Source: a virus
DNA length: 34,066 nucleotides
Direction: 5' to 3' (one strand)
Virus record (IMG/VR): IMGVR_UViG_3300025132_000142
Span: 1 to 34,066 of that record
The translations under genes and the position numbers were made by a program. Shown here piece after piece: positions 11,369-33,359 of this stretch (its first letter is position 1; each line of letters starts with the position of its first letter). The notes under the pieces were generated by a model. It was not told the origin of the DNA. It made no database searches and worked only from the letters and a program-made list of their open reading frames with translations.

Positions 11369-14300
11369 ATGGAAAATAATATTCTTATAGAATATGACAA
11401 TCATAAATTTACTGATGAAGTTAGTACTGTAGAAGAAAAAGACTTCTCTGTAAAAACGGATGCTGAGCTTGATGAGATAGAGTTAACTACAGGCAATCCT
11501 CATACTAATGTCAAAGTTGCAAAGCAGGACTTCTTGAAGCAGAACGGTCCTCTTCAAGACTATGCTTTAAAGAGTCTTCAGTATCTTGACGTAGAACCAC
11601 AGAAGTTCCAAGAAAATGTAGAGAACTATTATGAGAAAGAACGAACATTTGTAGAGTCTGAGCAGTATTTTTATGAACAGGCTATTGCATTAAAAGACCC
11701 TGAAATTGTACCTACTGATTTACGAATTGCTTCTAACAATCGTATAGCACAGAGTATAATTGACAGGTATATGGATCAGCAAGAAACAGGATGGGTAGAC
11801 GCTATCTTTGACACTGGAGCTATGATAGGTTATGAGATATATCGATCACCTAAAGTTCTTGTTTCTGAAGATGAATTTAAAGAACTAGGTAATCAGTTTA
11901 TTGATAACCTAATTAAAATGGAACCTAAAGAATTTAATGAGTACTTTGAAGAATTGTCCTCAGACATTATGAGTAGAGGTCTTCGGGAAGATAGCATTTA
12001 CAATCTTCTTACTTTAAAAGATATTGTACACGACAAAGGTTTTACAACTTGGTCTGATAGACTTGGAAGAAAAACATTCGCTGCTTTGGATGTACTAGGT
12101 ATTTCACAATTAACTGCAGGTGGTTTAAAACTAGCATTAAAAACAGCTAGGAAGCAAACTCTTATATCTAGAGTAGCTAACAATGAAGGACCTGAAGCTG
12201 CAAGATTAGCTGCAGAAAAGAAACTAGCTCGTAGTTTAGACGAAGAAGTTAAGGCTGATGTAGGACCTGCTTCTTTAAATCCACATTTAAATGACAAAGC
12301 TCCTTTACCTTCAGAAAGTTCTATCTCTAGGCTCAGAGAAGAAAATAGAATAATTGAAGCTGTTAAAGAGATGAACTCTGCAAACGCTATAGGACGTATT
12401 CTTCCTGAAGCTGAAGTCGCTACTCTTGCAGGAAGAATAGGTAAACAACTACAAGATTCTTTTAACAATCCTGTTTATAAAGCAAAACATGCTAATGAAG
12501 AAGGTGTGTTTTTAAACTCAAATAGTTTAGGTGACTACACAGTTACTGTTCAATTCGGACGTGCTACGGATGGTCAGCCATATAAGCCAACAAAAACAGG
12601 TAAGCCCTCTCAAGGTGTGAAAGATGCAGCATTACGTGCTCAAGGAGAAGTTGTAGAAGTAACTGACGAGCTAGGTAAGATAGAAGGGTATGTAATACAA
12701 AAGCGTGTTAATCTAAACCTAGCTAAAGAAGTTCCTGAGATTACAGATATGTGGGAAGGGGTGATGAATTTAGAACGCAGTGGCGTTAGGGTTGCTGCTA
12801 ATAAATTAATCTATGGAGGTACTAGAGGTTTTCAATCTGCGGCTGCTAGAGACTTATCGAATTTACACGAGCTTGGTATTATAAGTGAGGGTTCTGCAGC
12901 TAGACTTGGAGAAGTAATTCAAGAAATAGCTAGACCTATTGAAAAGCTAGGCCCTACAGATAACGCAGCATTAAACAGTATCATAAAAAAACTACGTGAT
13001 AATCCTATTGAATCTTCTAAACGTGTATATTATTCAGAAGAGGCTTTTGCTGCAGAGTATTATTCTCTTATGACTCGTGAACCATCTGAAAACGTGATGG
13101 CTGCTTATCGTGCTGCAGTTGAAATAAGTGAAGCTGATCATATACTAAGATCAAGTAACGTAATGCAACAGTACGTTCGATCAGGTTATCAAGCCCTTAA
13201 ATTACCTAATGGTTTTAGAGTACCTGCACTTAGAGTTTCTAAAACATCTGTTCCAGAGCAAAGTCCTATATTAGACATTGTAGATAATCAGATTACATAC
13301 AAAGAGTTTGTAGAACCTAAAGCAGATATTTGGCGTTTAGATAAAGAGTACGAAGGTAGTTATTTCGTAACACGTCCTAAGTCTGTAGATGCTCTTGATC
13401 CTGAAGATGTACTAGGATACAACGCAGGTGGTCCTAGAACTAACCCAACTGCTCAGTGGTTTGTTGTAGGCGGTGATTATTCAAGAGGACGTATGAAAAC
13501 ATTCTTGTCAGCAACTGTTAAATCAGATGCAGATAAAGCTATTCAAGAAATAAATAATATTCTTAAAGCTCAAGGTTCCGATAATATAGATGATATTGTA
13601 CAGCAAAACCATAGTTGGAATCCTGCAATAGACACATTTGATGAGTTTAAAGCTTTCGCTGAAAAGAATGGTTGGAACTTAGAGTCTACTCCTCAATTAG
13701 CAGTAAAAGAACGTAATGTGCCTATCAAGTCTCCTGAAGGTGACGGTGACGTATTCAACGGTATGGCTATGTCAGAGTTTATAGACAACGATATGAGGCG
13801 TAATGATAAAGTTCTTCCTCATTATGGTGGCTTTAAAACTGCAAATTATGATCCTATAACAAATATCTTTTCTGCAGCTATTAACTCTGTACAAGAATTT
13901 AGTTCTCGCGCTCATACTGTAAACACTATGGTAAGTTGGGTAAAAATGGCGAAGAGACTAGATGGTGTAGAATTACCAAAAGGTGTTCCAGAGAGCGATT
14001 ACTACAGCCTATTTATGGGTGCTTCTTTTAAAGGAAGAGATCCCAATACGATAAGAGCTAAAGAATTATGGAATGTAGGACGTAGGCGTTTAAATGTAAA
14101 AAGACAAGATGAAGTGCTTATGCAGCGTCTAGGTCAGGCTATGGGTGACTTTGTTTTCGAGACTACTAGAAGGGGTTCTAGTATTAAGTGGGGTGATCCT
14201 ACTAATATAGGTCTGAAGATAGGTTTCATGTCTAAGTTTGGGTTCTTTAATCCTAAACAGCTTATCGTGCAGATGCAACACGTTCAACAAATTATGTTTA

Positions 14301-15757
14301 TTTCTCCTACACAGGGTTCTCGTGGTACGTCTATGGCTCTTCTTATGCGTGGGATATTTGCATTTCCTTCTTTTAAGCAAGAAGGTCTGCGAAGAATGGC
14401 TAAAGTATACAATCTTCCAGAAAAAACAATGGAAGAGATATACGAATTTGTTGTTACTTCAGGAAGAGCTAACCTTGAAACAGAAATTGCTGAACTTAAT
14501 ACTGGTTTCGGAAGAGGTCTGTCAAGCTATAAAGGTGAAAACTATAATCAGAAACTTCTATATAAAAGTTGGGAAGGTTTAAAAAAGTATTCAAAGCAAG
14601 GAGCACAGCTTAGTTTAATTCCTTTTCGTGAAGGAGACAGATTGGCACGTATGTCAGGTGACTACACAGCTTTATTAGAATATATTGCTAAGAATCCTGG
14701 AGAGTCTATCTTAACAGAAAGTGCTCGAAGACAAATAATGAGACGTGCTGATGTTTTAAATTTTCATATGACATCTACATCAAATGCAGCTTGGCAAAAA
14801 GGTCCTTTAAGACTACCTACACAATGGCTGTCGTACACCTTTAGGTCTATGGAAGCAGTGTTTGTAGGACGTGATCTTACTCCTCTTGAGAGAGTTAGAC
14901 TTGGATTTGCTTTAACTGCTTTTTATGGTTTTGCAGGATTTGGTTTCACACAAGGTGCAGAGTATTTAGCAGATAAACTAGGTTTAAAAACTGACGATGA
15001 GTTCTTTACTTTCTTGAAGTGGGGTTTTCAAGAAGCTGTGATTGATCTTATGCTAGAAGATGAAAAAGGAAGAGTAGGTGTAGGTCTTACTACAAGTTTT
15101 GCACCTGCAGGTCAGCTTATTGATTTAGCTAAAAAGATAGACGAAGGAAGATTTTTAGAGGTATCTACTGGACCTGCAGGACAGATCAGTAAAGATATTA
15201 CTGTAGGTTTGTTTTCATTAATTGATAGTATTGTAAACTCTAACGAAGTCCTTATAAAAGAAAATGCTATAAATGTATTACGAAACATTACTACACTAGA
15301 TAGTTTAGCTAAAGCAAATGGTATTAGAAATCTAAAAAGATACAGAGGTAAGAGTGGAGCAAAGGTTCCAGGAGAGTTTACAGAAACAGAAGCTTATATA
15401 ACTGCTCTTGGTTTTTCTCCTCTTAAAGTTCAAGAGTACTATGCTGCTAAACCTATTCTTTTCAATGTAGAAAGAAAAATAAGAAAAGAACGTAAAATCA
15501 TTAATAGGTTAGCTGATAAAGCACACGATTTAATAAGAACTGGTGATTTAAGTAAAGTTGAGGAAGGTACAGATATTCTTAAAGGTTTAGCTTTGCGTAT
15601 CGAATTACTAGGTATTAGTGAAAAAGATAAAATGAGTTTACGTAAGGCTGTCATTACACCTATGAAAGATGAACTACCTCAGTTACTTCTTAAACTACAC
15701 GACAAAGTAAGCCCTGCTATGGCTGACCGTCTAAAATCTACTTTAACAGGAAACTAA
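11369..15757 (+). CDS. Large internal virion / DNA ejection protein (1462 aa)
   Basis: By length and place this corresponds to the giant internal core protein of T7-like phages (T7 gp16, 1318 aa), which forms part of the transenvelope DNA conduit. The N-terminal half is acidic and helical. The C-terminal part holds a hydrophobic segment at about residues 1176-1196 (RLGFALTAFYGFAGFGFTQ) and a second Gly-rich hydrophobic patch near 1235, the kind of regions expected to enter the membrane. I see no clear lysozyme motif, unlike T7 gp16; that activity seems moved to the next gene. The start is three bases after the preceding stop, with no strong Shine-Dalgarno except GCAGGAG upstream. Confidence 0.75.
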   Translation: MENNILIEYDNHKFTDEVSTVEEKDFSVKTDAELDEIELTTGNPHTNVKVAKQDFLKQNGPLQDYALKSLQYLDVEPQKFQENVENYYEKERTFVESEQYFYEQAIALKDPEIVPTDLRIASNNRIAQSIIDRYMDQQETGWVDAIFDTGAMIGYEIYRSPKVLVSEDEFKELGNQFIDNLIKMEPKEFNEYFEELSSDIMSRGLREDSIYNLLTLKDIVHDKGFTTWSDRLGRKTFAALDVLGISQLTAGGLKLALKTARKQTLISRVANNEGPEAARLAAEKKLARSLDEEVKADVGPASLNPHLNDKAPLPSESSISRLREENRIIEAVKEMNSANAIGRILPEAEVATLAGRIGKQLQDSFNNPVYKAKHANEEGVFLNSNSLGDYTVTVQFGRATDGQPYKPTKTGKPSQGVKDAALRAQGEVVEVTDELGKIEGYVIQKRVNLNLAKEVPEITDMWEGVMNLERSGVRVAANKLIYGGTRGFQSAAARDLSNLHELGIISEGSAARLGEVIQEIARPIEKLGPTDNAALNSIIKKLRDNPIESSKRVYYSEEAFAAEYYSLMTREPSENVMAAYRAAVEISEADHILRSSNVMQQYVRSGYQALKLPNGFRVPALRVSKTSVPEQSPILDIVDNQITYKEFVEPKADIWRLDKEYEGSYFVTRPKSVDALDPEDVLGYNAGGPRTNPTAQWFVVGGDYSRGRMKTFLSATVKSDADKAIQEINNILKAQGSDNIDDIVQQNHSWNPAIDTFDEFKAFAEKNGWNLESTPQLAVKERNVPIKSPEGDGDVFNGMAMSEFIDNDMRRNDKVLPHYGGFKTANYDPITNIFSAAINSVQEFSSRAHTVNTMVSWVKMAKRLDGVELPKGVPESDYYSLFMGASFKGRDPNTIRAKELWNVGRRRLNVKRQDEVLMQRLGQAMGDFVFETTRRGSSIKWGDPTNIGLKIGFMSKFGFFNPKQLIVQMQHVQQIMFISPTQGSRGTSMALLMRGIFAFPSFKQEGLRRMAKVYNLPEKTMEEIYEFVVTSGRANLETEIAELNTGFGRGLSSYKGENYNQKLLYKSWEGLKKYSKQGAQLSLIPFREGDRLARMSGDYTALLEYIAKNPGESILTESARRQIMRRADVLNFHMTSTSNAAWQKGPLRLPTQWLSYTFRSMEAVFVGRDLTPLERVRLGFALTAFYGFAGFGFTQGAEYLADKLGLKTDDEFFTFLKWGFQEAVIDLMLEDEKGRVGVGLTTSFAPAGQLIDLAKKIDEGRFLEVSTGPAGQISKDITVGLFSLIDSIVNSNEVLIKENAINVLRNITTLDSLAKANGIRNLKRYRGKSGAKVPGEFTETEAYITALGFSPLKVQEYYAAKPILFNVERKIRKERKIINRLADKAHDLIRTGDLSKVEEGTDILKGLALRIELLGISEKDKMSLRKAVITPMKDELPQLLLKLHDKVSPAMADRLKSTLTGN

Positions 15758-15758
15758 T

Positions 15759-18269
15759 ATGGCTCAAGATATATTCGCACCTAAAACATCCTTTGATATA
15801 GGTTACGAAAAACCACAACAAGGTGTTACAGACAATACCGCCAAGATTGCAGCTGACTTTGAGGCTATGGCTTTAGGCGCACAAGCTCGTGCAGTACAAG
15901 GTCAAGCTCAACTTGAGTCTAATCAGTTTAGAGCGTTAGATATGGGTCTAAAAATAGGAGCACAGTCCTATGATGCTTATGTTGACTCTCAAGAAAAACT
16001 TGCTGTAAGTACATTAATTAAAGAGTTTGAAAATATAGACGCTCAAGATGGTGAAAAGGGTTTACCTTACGAAACTAAAAGAGCAAGATACGCTAATGCT
16101 ATTGGAAAAGCAGGGCAAAGTATACCAGGTGGTATGGCTAAACTTGGCAAGTATGGTGCAATAATTAAGAACGCTACAGGCATAGATATGGGAGAGGTAC
16201 AGAAAGACCCCTCACAAGCTATGTACGAGACTATGTTAAAAGACCCAATGTTTTATTCTGCTTTTCAGGCATCAAAGTTAGAGCAACCTAACCTAACTCA
16301 AGAAGAAAGATTCCTTAAAGCTCAACAGTTTGCAATAGCTAACGCTGCTGTTCAATTAGAATCGACAACATTAGACTTAAAAAGCTTAGACTCTTACCAT
16401 AAAAAAGGTAAAAGATTTGTAGACAACGTTATACTAAATACTGAAAAATACATCAAAGGGTCTATGCAAACAAAGATAGAGCAAGGGATTCCTGTAACTA
16501 CAGAGGATATTGAGATTTTAGAGCAAATTGTTCAGAATACTCAATTACAAGTTGCAAAGGTGATACCCCCTTCTGCTCCTGAAAGTGAAAGAAACTACTA
16601 CGATAATATATTTACTCAGATAGATGGTCTTTTAAAAGAAATAAAAGACACAAAAGACCCTGATTTAATATTACGAGGACTTGCTTCTGGTTTAACTCAA
16701 CTGGCACAAGACGAAGGTGATGTTATGGGGATGGCTGCAGGTGCAACATATGCAGATTTAAATCTTCTTACAACTTTGGATGGTGTAGATACTATTATTG
16801 AAAGTATAAAAAAACAATCAGACGGTACTTACAAACCTTCAAGAATAAGTGGTGGCAATGCTGATCAAATTATGGATATGATTACGAAGGACTACGAAGG
16901 TACTGTAGGACCTAACACTGCTTTAAGTTCTGAAGAATTAGGACCTCTGTTTGATGCTACAGGTTTAGGTATAGATGATTTAGATTCATTACGTAAATCT
17001 GGATTAGGTCTTATTAAAGATTTAAATATAGGAAAAGTATCTACTGAAAAAGGAAAAAAACAACTAACTGCAGGTGTTGCAGACATCACTAAAAGTTTAA
17101 ATTTCCTAGATTTACAACAAACAGGTCTTCAGCTTAAAGTTTTACTAGAAGATTCTGGTATGCTAGACTTGATAGATGCTCTTGATAGTCAAGATCGTGC
17201 ATTGGCTAACAATCTTAGAACTCTTATGACAAGTGCTGTAACTAATAATCTAAGATTCTCTGAACAAAAGGTTGCGGTTATAGAAAGGGAAGGTGTAGGA
17301 GCCTCTAATAGAAAACCTGGATTAGTTTGGGATGAAAATACAAAAACATACTACGCTACAGATGAGTCCTATATAGACTTTCTAAAAGGTAAAACAGTTA
17401 GAAGAGGCTATCTGGTAGGTACTGATGCAGAAGCAGAAAGAAGAATAGAAAGTTTACTAAATGAGAAAGGACTGCCTCTTGCAAGGTCAAGTGATTTAGT
17501 TACTGAAGATATTAGTAAAGCCTATAAACACAGAGAAGTTATTGAGGTTGCAAATAGAGTACTAGACAGAATTAGAGTAGAGGAAGCTAATGAACCTGAA
17601 CCAGTACAACCAAGTGTAGAAGAAATAGCTACTACTGCTCTTGATCAAGTAGATGCTGAAGAGTTAAGAGAATCATCAGTACGTAGTATCCGAAACAACA
17701 ATCCAGGAAATATAAAGAAGACAAATACTCAATGGGAAGGTATGACTCAGGAGCAAGCTGACTCTACGTTTGTATCTTTCGAGAGTCCTGAGATGGGTGT
17801 TAGAGCTTTAGCAAGAGTCTTGAATACATACAACACACAATATAACTTAGATGATATATCTGGTATGGTTTCTAGATTTGCACCACCTACAGAGAATGAT
17901 ACTCAGAACTACATTAAGTTTGTATCTGAAAAGTCAGGTATTCCAAGAACTAGAAAGATTACTCTTCAAGATAACCCTGAAGATATGAAGAAAGTAATAG
18001 CAGCTATGATTGAAATGGAAGGTGGTTCTGACTCAGTCAAGTACTTTACTCCTAGTATAATAAACGAAGGTGTAAGACTAGCACTAGAATCTACTGCCTC
18101 GCAGGATGTTGGTATAGATGAAGACCCACAACAAGCTACCATAGAAAGAATACCTGTGCGCCCTGATGATGAAACTCTTGGAGCAGCTTGGGATATACTA
18201 TACGGTAACAGTATGAAACCTGAAAACAAACCTTTAAGGGAAAGTAAACGCCCTCAACAAAGACCATAA
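15759..18269 (+). CDS. Internal virion protein with lysozyme-like domain
   Basis: An 836-residue helical, Gln-rich protein starting one base after the preceding gene. Most of it fits a T7 gp15-like core protein. Residues about 640-770 form a separate domain: RNNNPGNIKK at 645-654, QWEGMTQEQ, FVSFESPEMGVRALARVLNTY, FAPPTENDTQNYIKFVSEKSG. This is the RNNNPGNI domain found in many phage virion proteins and assumed to be a murein-cleaving module that opens the cell wall during DNA injection. The tail end (KRPQQRP) is basic and resembles the end of the next protein. Confidence 0.75.
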   Translation: MAQDIFAPKTSFDIGYEKPQQGVTDNTAKIAADFEAMALGAQARAVQGQAQLESNQFRALDMGLKIGAQSYDAYVDSQEKLAVSTLIKEFENIDAQDGEKGLPYETKRARYANAIGKAGQSIPGGMAKLGKYGAIIKNATGIDMGEVQKDPSQAMYETMLKDPMFYSAFQASKLEQPNLTQEERFLKAQQFAIANAAVQLESTTLDLKSLDSYHKKGKRFVDNVILNTEKYIKGSMQTKIEQGIPVTTEDIEILEQIVQNTQLQVAKVIPPSAPESERNYYDNIFTQIDGLLKEIKDTKDPDLILRGLASGLTQLAQDEGDVMGMAAGATYADLNLLTTLDGVDTIIESIKKQSDGTYKPSRISGGNADQIMDMITKDYEGTVGPNTALSSEELGPLFDATGLGIDDLDSLRKSGLGLIKDLNIGKVSTEKGKKQLTAGVADITKSLNFLDLQQTGLQLKVLLEDSGMLDLIDALDSQDRALANNLRTLMTSAVTNNLRFSEQKVAVIEREGVGASNRKPGLVWDENTKTYYATDESYIDFLKGKTVRRGYLVGTDAEAERRIESLLNEKGLPLARSSDLVTEDISKAYKHREVIEVANRVLDRIRVEEANEPEPVQPSVEEIATTALDQVDAEELRESSVRSIRNNNPGNIKKTNTQWEGMTQEQADSTFVSFESPEMGVRALARVLNTYNTQYNLDDISGMVSRFAPPTENDTQNYIKFVSEKSGIPRTRKITLQDNPEDMKKVIAAMIEMEGGSDSVKYFTPSIINEGVRLALESTASQDVGIDEDPQQATIERIPVRPDDETLGAAWDILYGNSMKPENKPLRESKRPQQRP

Positions 18270-22547: not shown

Positions 22548-24440
22548 CTACGCTGATATATCTACAATCTCACATGTCTCGCCAGTACATGCGAATGTCT
22601 GACTAGACTTAGTTGTATCTTCTAACTCGTACTCTGATAACTTAGTCCAATCAATACTCTTAGGCATTGTCTTCATAAGTTCTTTGTAATCATCTTTAGT
22701 ACACTCTTGGTATGGTGCTTGTTGGTAGATGTGATCGTCATACGGTAAGAAACTTACACCACTCATCTCATCAAAGTGCTCGTATACAAATGAACCTACC
22801 TCAAACCATTCATCCTTTCTTACATTAATTGTTACGCTAGGTTTATGCTCGCACCAATGACGTTGATACATCAACCACGTTTCTAGTTGATCGATAGCTG
22901 ACAAGTCAGATGTTACTACAGCATTGTTTGGTGCTTGTACTGGAAAGCTAAACACTGTAGTCTGGTCTGGTTTGTAAACACACGGCTCACTTGGTATACC
23001 TTGATCCTTCATAAACTGAGTGAGAGGGTCTTTGTTGTCACCTCTTACTGTTCGAATATAGTAAGGACTATACCTAGCGTGAATACCAGAAGAAGAGTCA
23101 ACAAGTTGAGAGACAGTTCCCGATGGTTTGTTGCAACTTATAGCTGTACTACAGTTAATACCAAGACGTTCAGCCCACTCATTGTTAGTAGCTACCGCAA
23201 CTTCCCGAAGTCTTTCTAGTGTCTTGTCTAATCCTTCATTCTTTGTAGTCATTAATGGGTTGTCCATTACCCCTGTGAGAGACACACCAAGCAGTCGCTC
23301 TTCTTCGGTATTTCGCTGCCACACCTTTCGCAGATATGGGAAGTTGGTGTATGTGGATTGGATAGTTCCCAGTATTGTTGCCAAACGGACTTTTCGCTCC
23401 AGATCGTCCACAGTATCCGTAGCCCTGACAACAACCTCTGTAAGATTACAGAACTGATACGGCCTAAGGATAATCTCACTACACGGATTAGTTCCGAAGT
23501 CGTAGTTAGGATCACGTCTGCCATTCTTCGCAGCTTGATTCTTACTTGCTTGTCTATTGAATACACCCCTCTCTCCACTTCCTGATTCTACTAGAGCCAT
23601 CCACTCACGCATGAATGAAAGACTATCTGGTTTCTCTACGTATGCTACACTGTTGTTAGCTAAGTATCTATGAGCAGGAAACTCTCCTGACTTAGCGTGT
23701 CGCATCTTATCGTCTGATAGGTTAGACAGACTAATCATAGCACTACGTCTAACACCACCTACTACAACCACCTCACCTATCTTACACATGATGTCGTGTG
23801 CTTCTATGCTTGATAGCTTACGTCCTTGGGCTTCTTTGAATACATGAACTACGAAGTTAAACAAGTCAACTAAAGGTGCAGGTCCACTAGCTCTGCCACC
23901 AAATGTTTCAAGTCTAGCACCTGCAGGTCTTACCCTACTAACATTCCACTTAGGAATCTCACCACTATAAAGGAGAGCAATAACTTGTCGAAGAGCTTTA
24001 GCCCACCCTTCCTTACTGTCCTTTACCACAATGGTAGTATCACTCTCGAAGAGTTCTGGTATCTCTGGAAGCTTAGAAACGAACTGCCTCTCGACACTAA
24101 ACCCAACACCAGTACCACAGAGAAGAATAAACATAGCCTCATCGAAGGACTTAGGATCATCTACGGGTAGGTAACTACAGTTGTACCCTGCAGTGTTGTC
24201 TCTGTCCAATGCTGCACCTGCAGTCATAATTGCTCTCATACTTGGCATTACTTCGAGAGATAGTATTGCTTGTTCTATCTCATTACAAATACTAGAATCT
24301 ACCAACGAACTAACAACGTTAAACATATACCTATCTACTGTCTCTCCCCATGTCTCACGTCTTTGTTCTTCATCCAACCACCTAGCGTAGCGTGATGTGT
24401 GAATGAATGCTTGGTAGTCTGTTGGTAGATAATTGCTCAT
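22548..24440 (-). CDS. nrdJ: Class II (adenosylcobalamin) ribonucleoside-triphosphate reductase
   Basis: Reduces ribonucleotides to deoxyribonucleotides using vitamin B12 coenzyme. At 630 aa it has the monomeric RTPR layout known from Lactobacillus leichmannii, only shorter. C320 in NPCSEI would carry the thiyl radical, with E322 beside it; C88 (YNCSY) and C331 (QFCNL) form the reducible pair. The spacing C320 to C331 (11) equals C408 to C419 in the Lactobacillus enzyme. The C-terminal CTGETC (C617, C622) is the shuttle pair with the same 5-residue spacing. CGTGVGFSVE (108-117) is also typical. The start overlaps the end of mazG (ATGA). Use of this enzyme makes the phage dependent on host cobalamin. 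Confidence 0.92.
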   Translation of the reverse strand: MSNYLPTDYQAFIHTSRYARWLDEEQRRETWGETVDRYMFNVVSSLVDSSICNEIEQAILSLEVMPSMRAIMTAGAALDRDNTAGYNCSYLPVDDPKSFDEAMFILLCGTGVGFSVERQFVSKLPEIPELFESDTTIVVKDSKEGWAKALRQVIALLYSGEIPKWNVSRVRPAGARLETFGGRASGPAPLVDLFNFVVHVFKEAQGRKLSSIEAHDIMCKIGEVVVVGGVRRSAMISLSNLSDDKMRHAKSGEFPAHRYLANNSVAYVEKPDSLSFMREWMALVESGSGERGVFNRQASKNQAAKNGRRDPNYDFGTNPCSEIILRPYQFCNLTEVVVRATDTVDDLERKVRLATILGTIQSTYTNFPYLRKVWQRNTEEERLLGVSLTGVMDNPLMTTKNEGLDKTLERLREVAVATNNEWAERLGINCSTAISCNKPSGTVSQLVDSSSGIHARYSPYYIRTVRGDNKDPLTQFMKDQGIPSEPCVYKPDQTTVFSFPVQAPNNAVVTSDLSAIDQLETWLMYQRHWCEHKPSVTINVRKDEWFEVGSFVYEHFDEMSGVSFLPYDDHIYQQAPYQECTKDDYKELMKTMPKSIDWTKLSEYELEDTTKSSQTFACTGETCEIVDISA

Positions 24441-27479: not shown

Positions 27480-27974
27480 TTAGAATCCTACTGCTTCGTT
27501 CTCTTTGACATACTCTTCGAGTTCAAGAACTTTGACACCAACTAAACTTGTACGACTGTACTGTTGACCATCACTTCCAGTAAAGGTTGTGATTAAATTA
27601 GTACACTCAGCAAGAGTTCCGTTACCGATTACACCCATGTCTTCAGTCCAAACATTACCTTCCTTGTCTGTAACCTTTGGTGCTCCACCTGCTTGTGGAA
27701 TCTCAGTACCATCCTTCTTGAGAACCTTATGTGGACGTACAAACTTGACTACAATCTCACCATCAATCATGCGATTCTGGTTAGGTTGTTTCTGAGAACC
27801 TGCATCCTTGAGAGACTTCATACCCTCTTTGTCTAGGATTTGATTGACAGTGTACGCACCATCAGACTTCTCGTATGCTCCACCGTATCCTGTTAGATCA
27901 CGGTTCTCTTCGTTGAGTCGAGGCCATTCGATCTGACCTACAGTTTTTACTTCTTTGTATATTGTTTTAGGCAT
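27480..27974 (-). CDS. Single-stranded DNA-binding protein (gp2.5-like)
   Basis: 164 residues beginning MPKTIYKEVKTVGQIEWPRL, with the strand-rich middle (EIVVKFVRPHKVLKKDG) and DGQQYSRTSLVGVKVLELEE end of an OB fold. The C-terminus is acidic and finishes in Phe (EYVKENEAVGF); in T7 gp2.5 the terminal Phe after acidic residues contacts polymerase and helicase. Gene order polymerase-SSB-exonuclease supports the assignment. AGGAAAGG precedes the ATG, and a promoter lies directly upstream. Confidence 0.7.
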   Translation of the reverse strand: MPKTIYKEVKTVGQIEWPRLNEENRDLTGYGGAYEKSDGAYTVNQILDKEGMKSLKDAGSQKQPNQNRMIDGEIVVKFVRPHKVLKKDGTEIPQAGGAPKVTDKEGNVWTEDMGVIGNGTLAECTNLITTFTGSDGQQYSRTSLVGVKVLELEEYVKENEAVGF

Positions 27975-27998: not shown

Positions 27999-28037
27999 CC
28001 ATACTTATATATTAATATATTATTTTATTCGTGTCAA
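27999..28037 (-). promoter_or_regulatory. Sigma70-like promoter of ssb-exonuclease-RNR genes, with palindrome
   Basis: Minus strand: -35 TTGACA at 28037-28032 (consensus), 17-base spacer, -10 region TAATAT at 28014-28009. It starts three bases after the DNA polymerase stop codon. A 14-bp perfect palindrome ATATATTAATATAT (28007-28020) covers the -10 region. The 23-base segment 27999-28021 is repeated exactly at 32800-32822. Confidence 0.75.
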
Positions 28038-32368: not shown

Positions 32369-32675
32369 CTTTCCTTACATAATTATCTATGAAGTGCTTG
32401 ATACTTTTACTCCGATACCATTTATTTTTACCAAGAACGCTCCATTTACCAGTAAGAAGTGCATAAATAAACTTATCATCTATTAACACAGTTCCTGATC
32501 CATGATGTTTCCATTTAACACCACTTAGTATAATCTCTCTTTCCTGTTGCAGTTTATTCAACTCATTCCAAGGGGCTTTTCCATATCGGTCTTTATCATA
32601 TACCCTTATCTCAGCAAGCCTTACTACCTCCATTTGCTTTTCTATCTCTTTATCTATCCTCTCTAACTCAATCAT
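32358..32675 (-). CDS. Hypothetical protein with N-terminal coiled coil, 105 aa
   Basis: Residues 1-50 form a charged helical coiled coil (MIELERIDKEIEKQMEVVRLA). Residues about 55-100 are a compact basic domain with SGTVLIDDKFIYALLTGKW then KNKWYRSKSIKHFIDNYVRK. The second part resembles small phage-specific domains without known function. It overlaps thyX by 11 bases and the upstream micro-gene by 8 bases. Not recognised further. Confidence 0.7.
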   Translation of the reverse strand: MIELERIDKEIEKQMEVVRLAEIRVYDKDRYGKAPWNELNKLQQEREIILSGVKWKHHGSGTVLIDDKFIYALLTGKWSVLGKNKWYRSKSIKHFIDNYVRKDDD

Positions 32676-32790
32676 TGTTCTTACCCTTGAGTCTGTGTTT
32701 GAAAAACAGAATCGTATTTATACCAGTGTTGATAGTAACCATGATAAGTATCCACCATTGCCACCATACTAACCCTCCTACTTCTAACAT
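32668..32790 (-). CDS. Small membrane protein, 40 aa
   Basis: First gene after the promoter at 32800-32838, with GGAG (32797-32800) eight bases before its ATG. It begins MLEVGGLVWWQWWILIMVTI, a Trp-rich membrane helix (about residues 7-30), and ends in a basic tail (KHRLKGKNND). Its end overlaps the next gene by eight bases. Good ribosome site plus overlap support translation. Confidence 0.6.
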   Translation of the reverse strand: MLEVGGLVWWQWWILIMVTINTGINTILFFKHRLKGKNND

Positions 32791-32799
32791 TTACATACT

Positions 32800-32838
32800 C
32801 CATACTTATATATTAATATATTCTAATCAATTTGTAAA
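32800..32838 (-). promoter_or_regulatory. Sigma70-like promoter, second copy of the palindromic element
   Basis: Minus strand: -35 TTTACA at 32838-32833 (5/6), 17-base spacer, -10 region TAATAT at 32815-32810. The 23 bases 32800-32822 equal 27999-28021, including the 14-bp palindrome (32808-32821). It would drive the 40-aa protein, thyX and the replication genes. It begins just downstream of the zinc-finger gene stop. Confidence 0.7.
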
Positions 32839-32840
32839 GA

Positions 32841-33044
32841 CTACTCTCTATATTTTTCTTTTATGTTGACAATCTTTTTTATTTCATCCTCTTCGTTTAT
32901 CCTAAATATCCTTTCGAGATCATCTCTTCCAAAGGTACTGTAGGCTGTTTTGTTTATATCATCTTTACAGTCAACACAGTAGTACCTATTCATTCTCTTG
33001 TCAGAAAAGGTTGCGTCTGCTCTATTACAACAATAACATCTCAT
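32841..33044 (-). CDS. Small zinc-finger protein, 67 aa
   Basis: Begins MRCYCCNRADATFSD with C3 and C6 (plus C5), followed by YYCVDCKDD with C23 and C26: a treble-clef or zinc-ribbon four-Cys site. The C-terminal half is a charged helix (DDLERIFRINEEDEIKKIV). AAAGGAT precedes the ATG. It is the first gene behind the half-site array at 33055-33112. A transcriptional or RNA-polymerase-binding regulator is plausible, by analogy with small phage zinc proteins; not proven. Confidence 0.65.
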   Translation of the reverse strand: MRCYCCNRADATFSDKRMNRYYCVDCKDDINKTAYSTFGRDDLERIFRINEEDEIKKIVNIKEKYRE

Positions 33045-33054
33045 GTCTCTATCC

Positions 33055-33112
33055 TTTAAGTATATTTGTTTATAGTATTATTATACTTAAAACAATATTA
33101 CTTTAAGTATAA
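33055..33112 (-). promoter_or_regulatory. Three TTTAAGTATA half-sites with TATAAT: operator/promoter or origin region
   Basis: TTTAAGTATA occurs at 33055-33064 and 33102-33111 on the plus strand and inverted at 33082-33091. The last two make a perfect 11-bp inverted repeat (33081-33091/33102-33112) with a 10-base spacer. On the minus strand a perfect TATAAT lies at 33085-33080, overlapping the inverted half-site, though no good -35 is seen 16-18 bases before it. A TTGACA stands further up at 33144-33139. The arrangement fits a regulated early promoter; an origin is an alternative. Confidence 0.6.
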
Positions 33113-33140
33113 GATAGGGTATCACAACTAAACTGGTTTG

Positions 33141-33359
33141 TCAAGCCACCTCCTTTAAATTAAATATAAAAGCTTTCTTTATGTTCTCAAACTCCTCTTT
33201 TCTTATGTGCATATTGAATATCTCCAAGTGGTTTCGAGCCTCTCTTATGTTTAGTTTTTTTGTTAAAATCTCGAATGTACCATCATGTTTCTCTGCTATG
33301 ATCACGTAAGAGTTAGGTAAATCCTGGATTTCCATACCGAATGTAGTTCTGTTGTTCAT
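33141..33359 (-). CDS. Hypothetical early protein, 72 aa
   Basis: Begins MNNRTTFGMEIQDLPNSYVI, with short strands and then a Lys-rich helix (about 40-68). No Cys, no membrane segment. The start overlaps the stop of the two-helix membrane protein upstream (ATGA). The gene ends just before the repeat-rich regulatory region. Not recognised. Confidence 0.65.
   Translation of the reverse strand: MNNRTTFGMEIQDLPNSYVIIAEKHDGTFEILTKKLNIREARNHLEIFNMHIRKEEFENIKKAFIFNLKEVA

Follow-up and report, generated by a model that had tools for sequence, protein, structure and literature searches.

Phage T4 redirects the host RNA polymerase with two early phage proteins, MotA and AsiA, to promoters with a sigma70 -10 hexamer, the MotA boxes replacing the -35 element. 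In the group formed by P2 Ogr, P4 delta and 186 B, small phage-encoded C4 zinc proteins without an enzymatic domain serve several structural-operon promoters that share one recognition element and are read by the host RNA polymerase. Ogr has the cysteine pattern CX2CX22CX4C, and the P2 late promoters carry TGT-N12-ACA (PMC3931495). The DksA/TraR family, to which lambda Orf73 belongs, consists of small C4 zinc proteins by which host promoters are reprogrammed via RNA polymerase (PMC9239242). Cobaviruses belong to the phages that are abundant in the sea. In the published accounts of them there is no RNA polymerase gene and the word "promoter" is absent (PMC6918029, PMC6775973), and the question arises how phages with no polymerase of their own time their early, middle and late genes.

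The DNA analysed here, called the window, is a stretch of 34,066 bases from an IMG/VR record and represents part of the genome of a Zobellviridae/Cobavirinae phage. By comparison of the DNA polymerases, the closest isolate is Roseobacter phage CRP-4 (75.6% identical), and the next ones are CRP-5 and Lentibacter phage ICBM2, at 54% identity to the window. The minus strand carries the replication genes and the plus strand the structural ones, and the cobaviruses SIO1, ICBM1/2, CRP-4 and CRP-5 have the same gene order, with the two arms on opposite strands and no phage RNA polymerase. From the DNA polymerase relationship and the two-arm order with ThyX, ribonucleotide reductase (RNR), MazG and endonuclease I, as in CRP-4, we classify the window phage as a Veravirus-like cobavirus of Roseobacter-type bacteria. 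Relative to CRP-4, the stretch between the arms, which holds the late promoter, is absent from the window. A search with the phage RNA polymerase profile PF00940 gave no match, and none of the controls matched either. The ribonucleotide reductase (22548-24440) is kept in CRP-4 and near kin, but in G003 and G006 there is no more than a short weak match; one clade seems to be without this gene or to have a replacement.

An earlier note on this DNA had proposed a duplicated early/middle promoter based on an exactly repeated 23-mer. This sequence, CCATACTTATATATTAATATATT in the plus-strand orientation, does indeed occur exactly twice, at 27999-28021 and 32800-32822, the element itself being on the minus strand. 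There is no other site in the window with three or fewer mismatches (shuffled sequences give a mean of 0.00), and the whole record of the window contains the same two copies only. The features of the two sites are the following:

27999..28014, minus strand: conserved block TAATATATAAGTATGG of site 2, with the -10 hexamer at 28014-28009 (TAATAT) and ATAAGTATGG behind it; allele letter Y at position 28011
28032..28037, minus strand: -35 hexamer TTGACA of site 2, 17 nt from the -10 hexamer
27480..27974, minus strand: 164-aa gene of unknown family, the first one behind site 2, start at 27974; it lies behind DNA polymerase and is followed by exonuclease, endonuclease I, RNR and others
32800..32815, minus strand: conserved block TAATATATAAGTATGG of site 1, with the -10 hexamer at 32815-32810 (TAATAT); the allele letter is at 32812
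32833..32838, minus strand: -35 hexamer TTTACA of site 1, 17 nt from the -10 hexamer
32668..32790, minus strand: ORF for a hydrophobic product of 40 aa, read from the sequence, the first one behind site 1, start at 32790
28007..28020, no strand: perfect 14-bp palindrome ATATATTAATATAT, with a second copy at 32808-32821

Each copy sits in what is predicted to be a good sigma70-type promoter, TTGACA/TTTACA-N17-TAATAT, and precedes a gene start as had been claimed (27974 for the 164-aa gene and 32790 for the 40-aa ORF). The 17 bases said to separate it from the -35-like hexamer are found when counting to the -10 hexamer, while the distance to the 5' end of the 23-mer is 10 nt. Downstream of the 40-aa ORF there are a 105-aa gene (start 32675), ThyX, primase/helicase and DNA polymerase. 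Judging from its position and acidic C-terminus, the 164-aa product is probably a single-stranded DNA-binding protein.

We now turn our attention to the relatives. The loci of site 2 were fetched by the downstream protein, without use of the motif, and constitute thus unbiased evidence of conservation; all 31 upstream regions carry TTGACA-N17-TAAYATATAAGTATGG. For site 1 the relatives were fetched by the gene upstream of it, called znr, and the site is present in 44 of 44 records with the corresponding protein, ZnR (42 contigs, CRP-4 and the window). A third copy, TTGACA-N18-TAAYATATAAGTATAG, is found in the complete relatives and in CRP-4, on the opposite strand and ahead of the first late structural gene. 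Complete Veravirus-like relatives such as CRP-4 have accordingly three copies: after a 67-aa early gene (site 1), before the 164-aa gene (site 2) and at the late structural operon (site 3). The suggestion of a signature promoter is in this way supported for the phage group, with both the block and the -35 element kept, but the conserved unit is different from the 23-mer and its palindrome. It is TTGACA-N17/18-TAAYATATAAGTATRG, extending 10 nt beyond the -10 hexamer. The label "early/middle" is incomplete, since the same element is also found at the late structural operon.

In column counts, where the regular expression itself fixes part of the block, ATAAGTAT is fixed, TRG/TGA is almost fixed, the spacer is variable and the -35 is fixed at sites 2 and 3 (TTGACA in 42 of 42 and 23 of 23 contigs, respectively). 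A TTGACA-like -35, a spacer of 17 or 18 nt and, at sites 2 and 3, TAAYAT are thus the sigma70-type features observed. The -35 shifts between 17 and 18 nt, both of which are tolerated by sigma70, while TAAYAT and ATAAGTATRG are always contiguous. The difference between the -35 elements that had been pointed out belongs to site 1, which reads TTTACA, TTTACT or TTGACA. Likewise, the reported identity from -10 to about +1 holds within one genome, but between genomes one letter differs, and it does so in concert. The palindrome is present over the -10 region at both sites, but the operative role given to it is not supported, as it is missing in about half of the relatives. Many of them read ATATAGTAACATAT instead of ATATATTAATATAT, and we have rejected the palindrome as an operator and consider it incidental.

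The length and the exact repetition of the 23-mer are similar to those of 23-bp T7-type promoters, and one could imagine that a single-subunit RNA polymerase encoded by the phage starts from it. However, the published cobaviruses have no RNA polymerase gene (PMC6918029, PMC6775973), and the TTGACA conserved here at 17/18 nt is absent from T7-type promoters. The probability of this explanation is negligible.

The letter that differs between genomes is the fourth one of TAAY. It is identical at all readable sites of a given genome, either all T, as in the window and CRP-4, or all C. Near relatives disagree in this letter and distant ones agree, a pattern that implies frequent switching and is suggestive of a trans-acting partner. 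Our candidate for this partner is encoded directly before site 1, in the following region:

32841..33044, minus strand: ZnR, a 67-aa C4 zinc-ribbon-like protein (C3-x2-C6 ... C23-x2-C26, predicted helix 24-46), the proposed trans-acting partner
33116..33144, minus strand: the own promoter of znr, TTGACA (33144-33139)-N17-TACCCT (33121-33116), with an extended -10 TGA
33045..33115, minus strand: leader of znr; repeats of TACTTAAAG and inverted units TTTAAGTATA are retained here in all clades

The letter matches the type of ZnR without exception, in 39 of 39 contigs at site 1, 27 of 27 at site 2 and 15 of 15 at site 3. On a DNA tree of primase and polymerase (53 contigs), the ZnR type changes at least 8 times. 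Since many of the contigs are fragments and some are near-duplicates, the agreement is also given for independent pairs, which is 7/7 at site 1 and 7/7 at site 2 (p = 0.0156 each). Site 3, for which there are fewer genomes than for the other sites (15 contigs), gives 4/4, with a p value of 0.125 alone.

In a scan of 43 genes of the window, in which four near C-letter genomes were compared with distant T-letter genomes, only ZnR was closer to the distant same-letter genomes (75-79%) than to the near opposite-letter kin (57-59%). The reverse scan was made from the complete C-letter genome G004, which also carries genes missing from the window, and here again ZnR alone tracks the letter (87% to far C kin and 59% to near T kin); the genes between the right end of the window and the late promoter are highly variable and some could be compared in few genomes. 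Between the late promoter and znr, the only other genes of general occurrence are one of 72 aa and one for a 46-aa membrane protein. These two were considered as regulators and rejected, as they do not follow the letter. Another option considered was the two large internal virion proteins (11369-15757 and 15759-18269). Each of them exists in two very different types, with 25-38% versus 42-54% identity among otherwise near-identical phages, and the types are unlinked to the letter.

At site 2, the letter is the sole column that predicts the ZnR type with an accuracy of 1.00 among 1540 aligned columns, 662 of which are variable. The neighbouring base -1 reaches 0.98, and all other columns are at or below 0.83. 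At site 3, the letter is also the only column at 1.00. The scans and the column tests together indicate that neither linkage nor general relatedness accounts for the match between the letter and ZnR.

These results bear on the possibility that a segment with ZnR and the promoters is exchanged whole by recombination, or that one site converts another, and that no functional interaction is involved. The gene znr adjoins site 1, and its coding sequence has clearly been exchanged between lineages, as such a scenario would have it. However, primase and DNA polymerase, which separate znr from site 2, do not travel along with znr, and the association at site 2 is limited to the promoter within the 1540 columns, where the two types differ by few letters inside otherwise kin-like flanks. 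Site 3 is on the other arm, several kb away, and its flanks are unlinked. We judge recombination alone to be very improbable.

It could also be that the promoters are ordinary sigma70 promoters and that the letter and the ZnR type both follow the host strain, with ZnR fitting the host RNA polymerase and the -10 element fitting sigma, in which case the link would be indirect. The element is a good sigma70 promoter by itself, and similar strings occur in unrelated phages (see below). Moreover, CRP-5 and ICBM2, which differ from the window and CRP-4 in having neither ZnR nor the conserved motif, have a plain TTGACA-N-TATACT promoter at the late operon. A host shift should, however, mark the tail, the capsid and other host-facing genes, whereas only ZnR tracks the letter. 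In addition, sigma70 should be indifferent to T or C at this place in the -10, and the 10 nt behind the -10 hexamer are invariant at three unrelated gene starts, which is far beyond what sigma70 needs. An indirect link through the host is therefore improbable. Of the two options raised in the earlier note, a specific regulator or a host sigma factor, there is strong evidence for the former, and the regulator appears to be phage-encoded.

ZnR has the zinc motif CX2C-X16-CX2C. In the T genomes, all ZnR proteins read INKTAYSTFGRDDLERIF (or DRIF), and in the C genomes they read INEAVYNDFGRDDLNRIF or INV(A/T)(V/I)YN(Q/K)YGLDDLYR(A/T)F. Type-specific columns are concentrated at residues 29, 32, 34, 36, 37 and 44, within the predicted helix 24-46, and a second set is found at 51-61. 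The AlphaFold model is modest (mean pLDDT 66, pTM 0.43), and the helix, which lies behind the zinc ribbon, may be a recognition helix. Foldseek gave no match of this model in the PDB with E below 0.4, and family searches in Pfam, PHROGs and PDB sequences gave no match. No homologues were found in bacterial genomes, and among the isolated phages only CRP-4 has one. The HTH protein gp05 of ICBM2, which has the same length and is on the same arm, was considered as a counterpart but is unrelated in sequence. In the CRP-4 record (MK613346; locus L044), the ORF homologous to ZnR is at 1760-1963, while the annotated gp06 begins at 1832 and is a shortened hypothetical protein without the zinc ribbon.

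We hold, with reasonable confidence, that ZnR is the sequence-specific trans-acting partner of a regulon of three promoters, including the two copies in the window. Each promoter would consist of a host sigma70-type TTGACA-N17/18-TAAYAT fused to the fixed downstream ATAAGTATRG. All clades, of either letter, have kept the promoter of znr, which is without the TAAYATATAAGTATRG block, and the host polymerase would read znr early from this extended -10 promoter. ZnR would next read the block, either on DNA alone or together with the host RNA polymerase, and would then act on site 1 (ThyX, primase, polymerase), on site 2 (the 164-aa gene and exonuclease, up to RNR) and on site 3 (the late structural operon). 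It would in this way stand in for the phage RNA polymerase that cobaviruses lack. The regulon is probably an early-to-middle/late switch and ZnR likely the master switch of this phage group. All the evidence comes from comparison. It shows the anatomy of the promoters, the three sites, the concerted letter and the exceptionless match with ZnR, unique among the genes, whereas the activity of the promoters, a direct contact of ZnR with the DNA and the timing outlined here are inferred.

As to the sign of the regulation, activation is slightly favoured, since a repressor that is an early product would have the late operon switched on from the outset. In the opposite case, ZnR, as an early product, would cover the -10 and start region in all three promoters and close or tune them, and the pattern would be one of repressor-operator co-evolution. 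This differs from the best explanation in sign only. The block spans from -10 to about +4, which is a classical operator position, and for elements overlapping the -10 and the start, repressors are commoner than activators. The -35 elements are near consensus, meaning that the promoters could fire unaided, and the znr leader holds related TTAAGTATA / ATAAGTATAG elements, as negative autoregulation predicts. On the other hand, a lytic phage would hardly profit from a late operon that is open at the start and shut down afterwards, and the block is found at three promoters that jointly drive almost all non-early genes. We thus find a repressor rather unlikely.

The repeats in the znr leader make autoregulation possible. 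In one clade, the ATAAGTATAG in the leader is identical to the promoter block. We have also considered the leader as an RNA switch, but the z-score of the fold is -1.7, which is not significant.

The nearest functional analogue of ZnR is the P2 Ogr/delta group, which it resembles in being a small phage-encoded C4 zinc protein without an enzymatic domain and in the element shared by several promoters. ZnR is not a member of this group, however, as judged by the cysteine spacing (CX2CX16CX2C), the absence of a match to the Ogr_Delta family (Pfam PF04606) and the position of the site, which overlaps the -10 and the start. Another difference is that ZnR goes with the promoters for replication in addition to the late one. 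The proposed scheme is similar to that of MotA/AsiA, to which no sequence relation was found, but in contrast to the T4 middle promoters, TTGACA is retained here and the extra element is downstream of the -10. DksA/TraR proteins are not known to read a specific DNA letter, whereas the type of ZnR goes with one specific letter, and ZnR gave no match to zf-dskA_traR (PF01258). In our view, ZnR is a candidate for a phage-encoded regulator acting on promoters of the host polymerase; its protein family has not been described so far, its site is unusual and the co-evolution is clearly recorded. As a tentative extension, it could be the founding member of a new class of minimal transcription factors in phages, which recognise the -10/start region itself and help or replace sigma70 at TAAYATATAAGTATRG, the specificity having been switched repeatedly with all promoters matching.

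For the question of timing in cobaviruses, a concrete and testable answer is thus offered: a single candidate regulator, the three promoters that it would target and, in CRP-4, a phage that is in culture together with its host. The switches, at least 8, constitute a rare natural series of changes in regulator-promoter specificity that ties residues to a base. They could possibly be used in the study of the evolution of DNA recognition and for orthogonal promoter-regulator pairs.

Finally, a few unrelated phages have the same block behind a good -35, with no ZnR detected. These are perhaps chance matches, some of which are expected in 2.9 million contigs, and part of the block may reflect a preference of the host polymerase. 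In one unrelated phage, a 158-kb contig (IMGVR_UViG_3300001528_000378, L110:1195-1605) in which no ZnR homologue was found, there are five tandem TTGACA-N17-TANNNTATAAGTATRR promoters within ~500 bases, all with the downstream block and with AAATATGC ahead of the -10. Another phage group (L182, L185, L214, L228 and L234, with ZnR not found in the first four) has TTGACA-N17-TAATATATAAGTATAG immediately ahead of a conserved gene start (TCAAGAACAACACAACAACGGAG).
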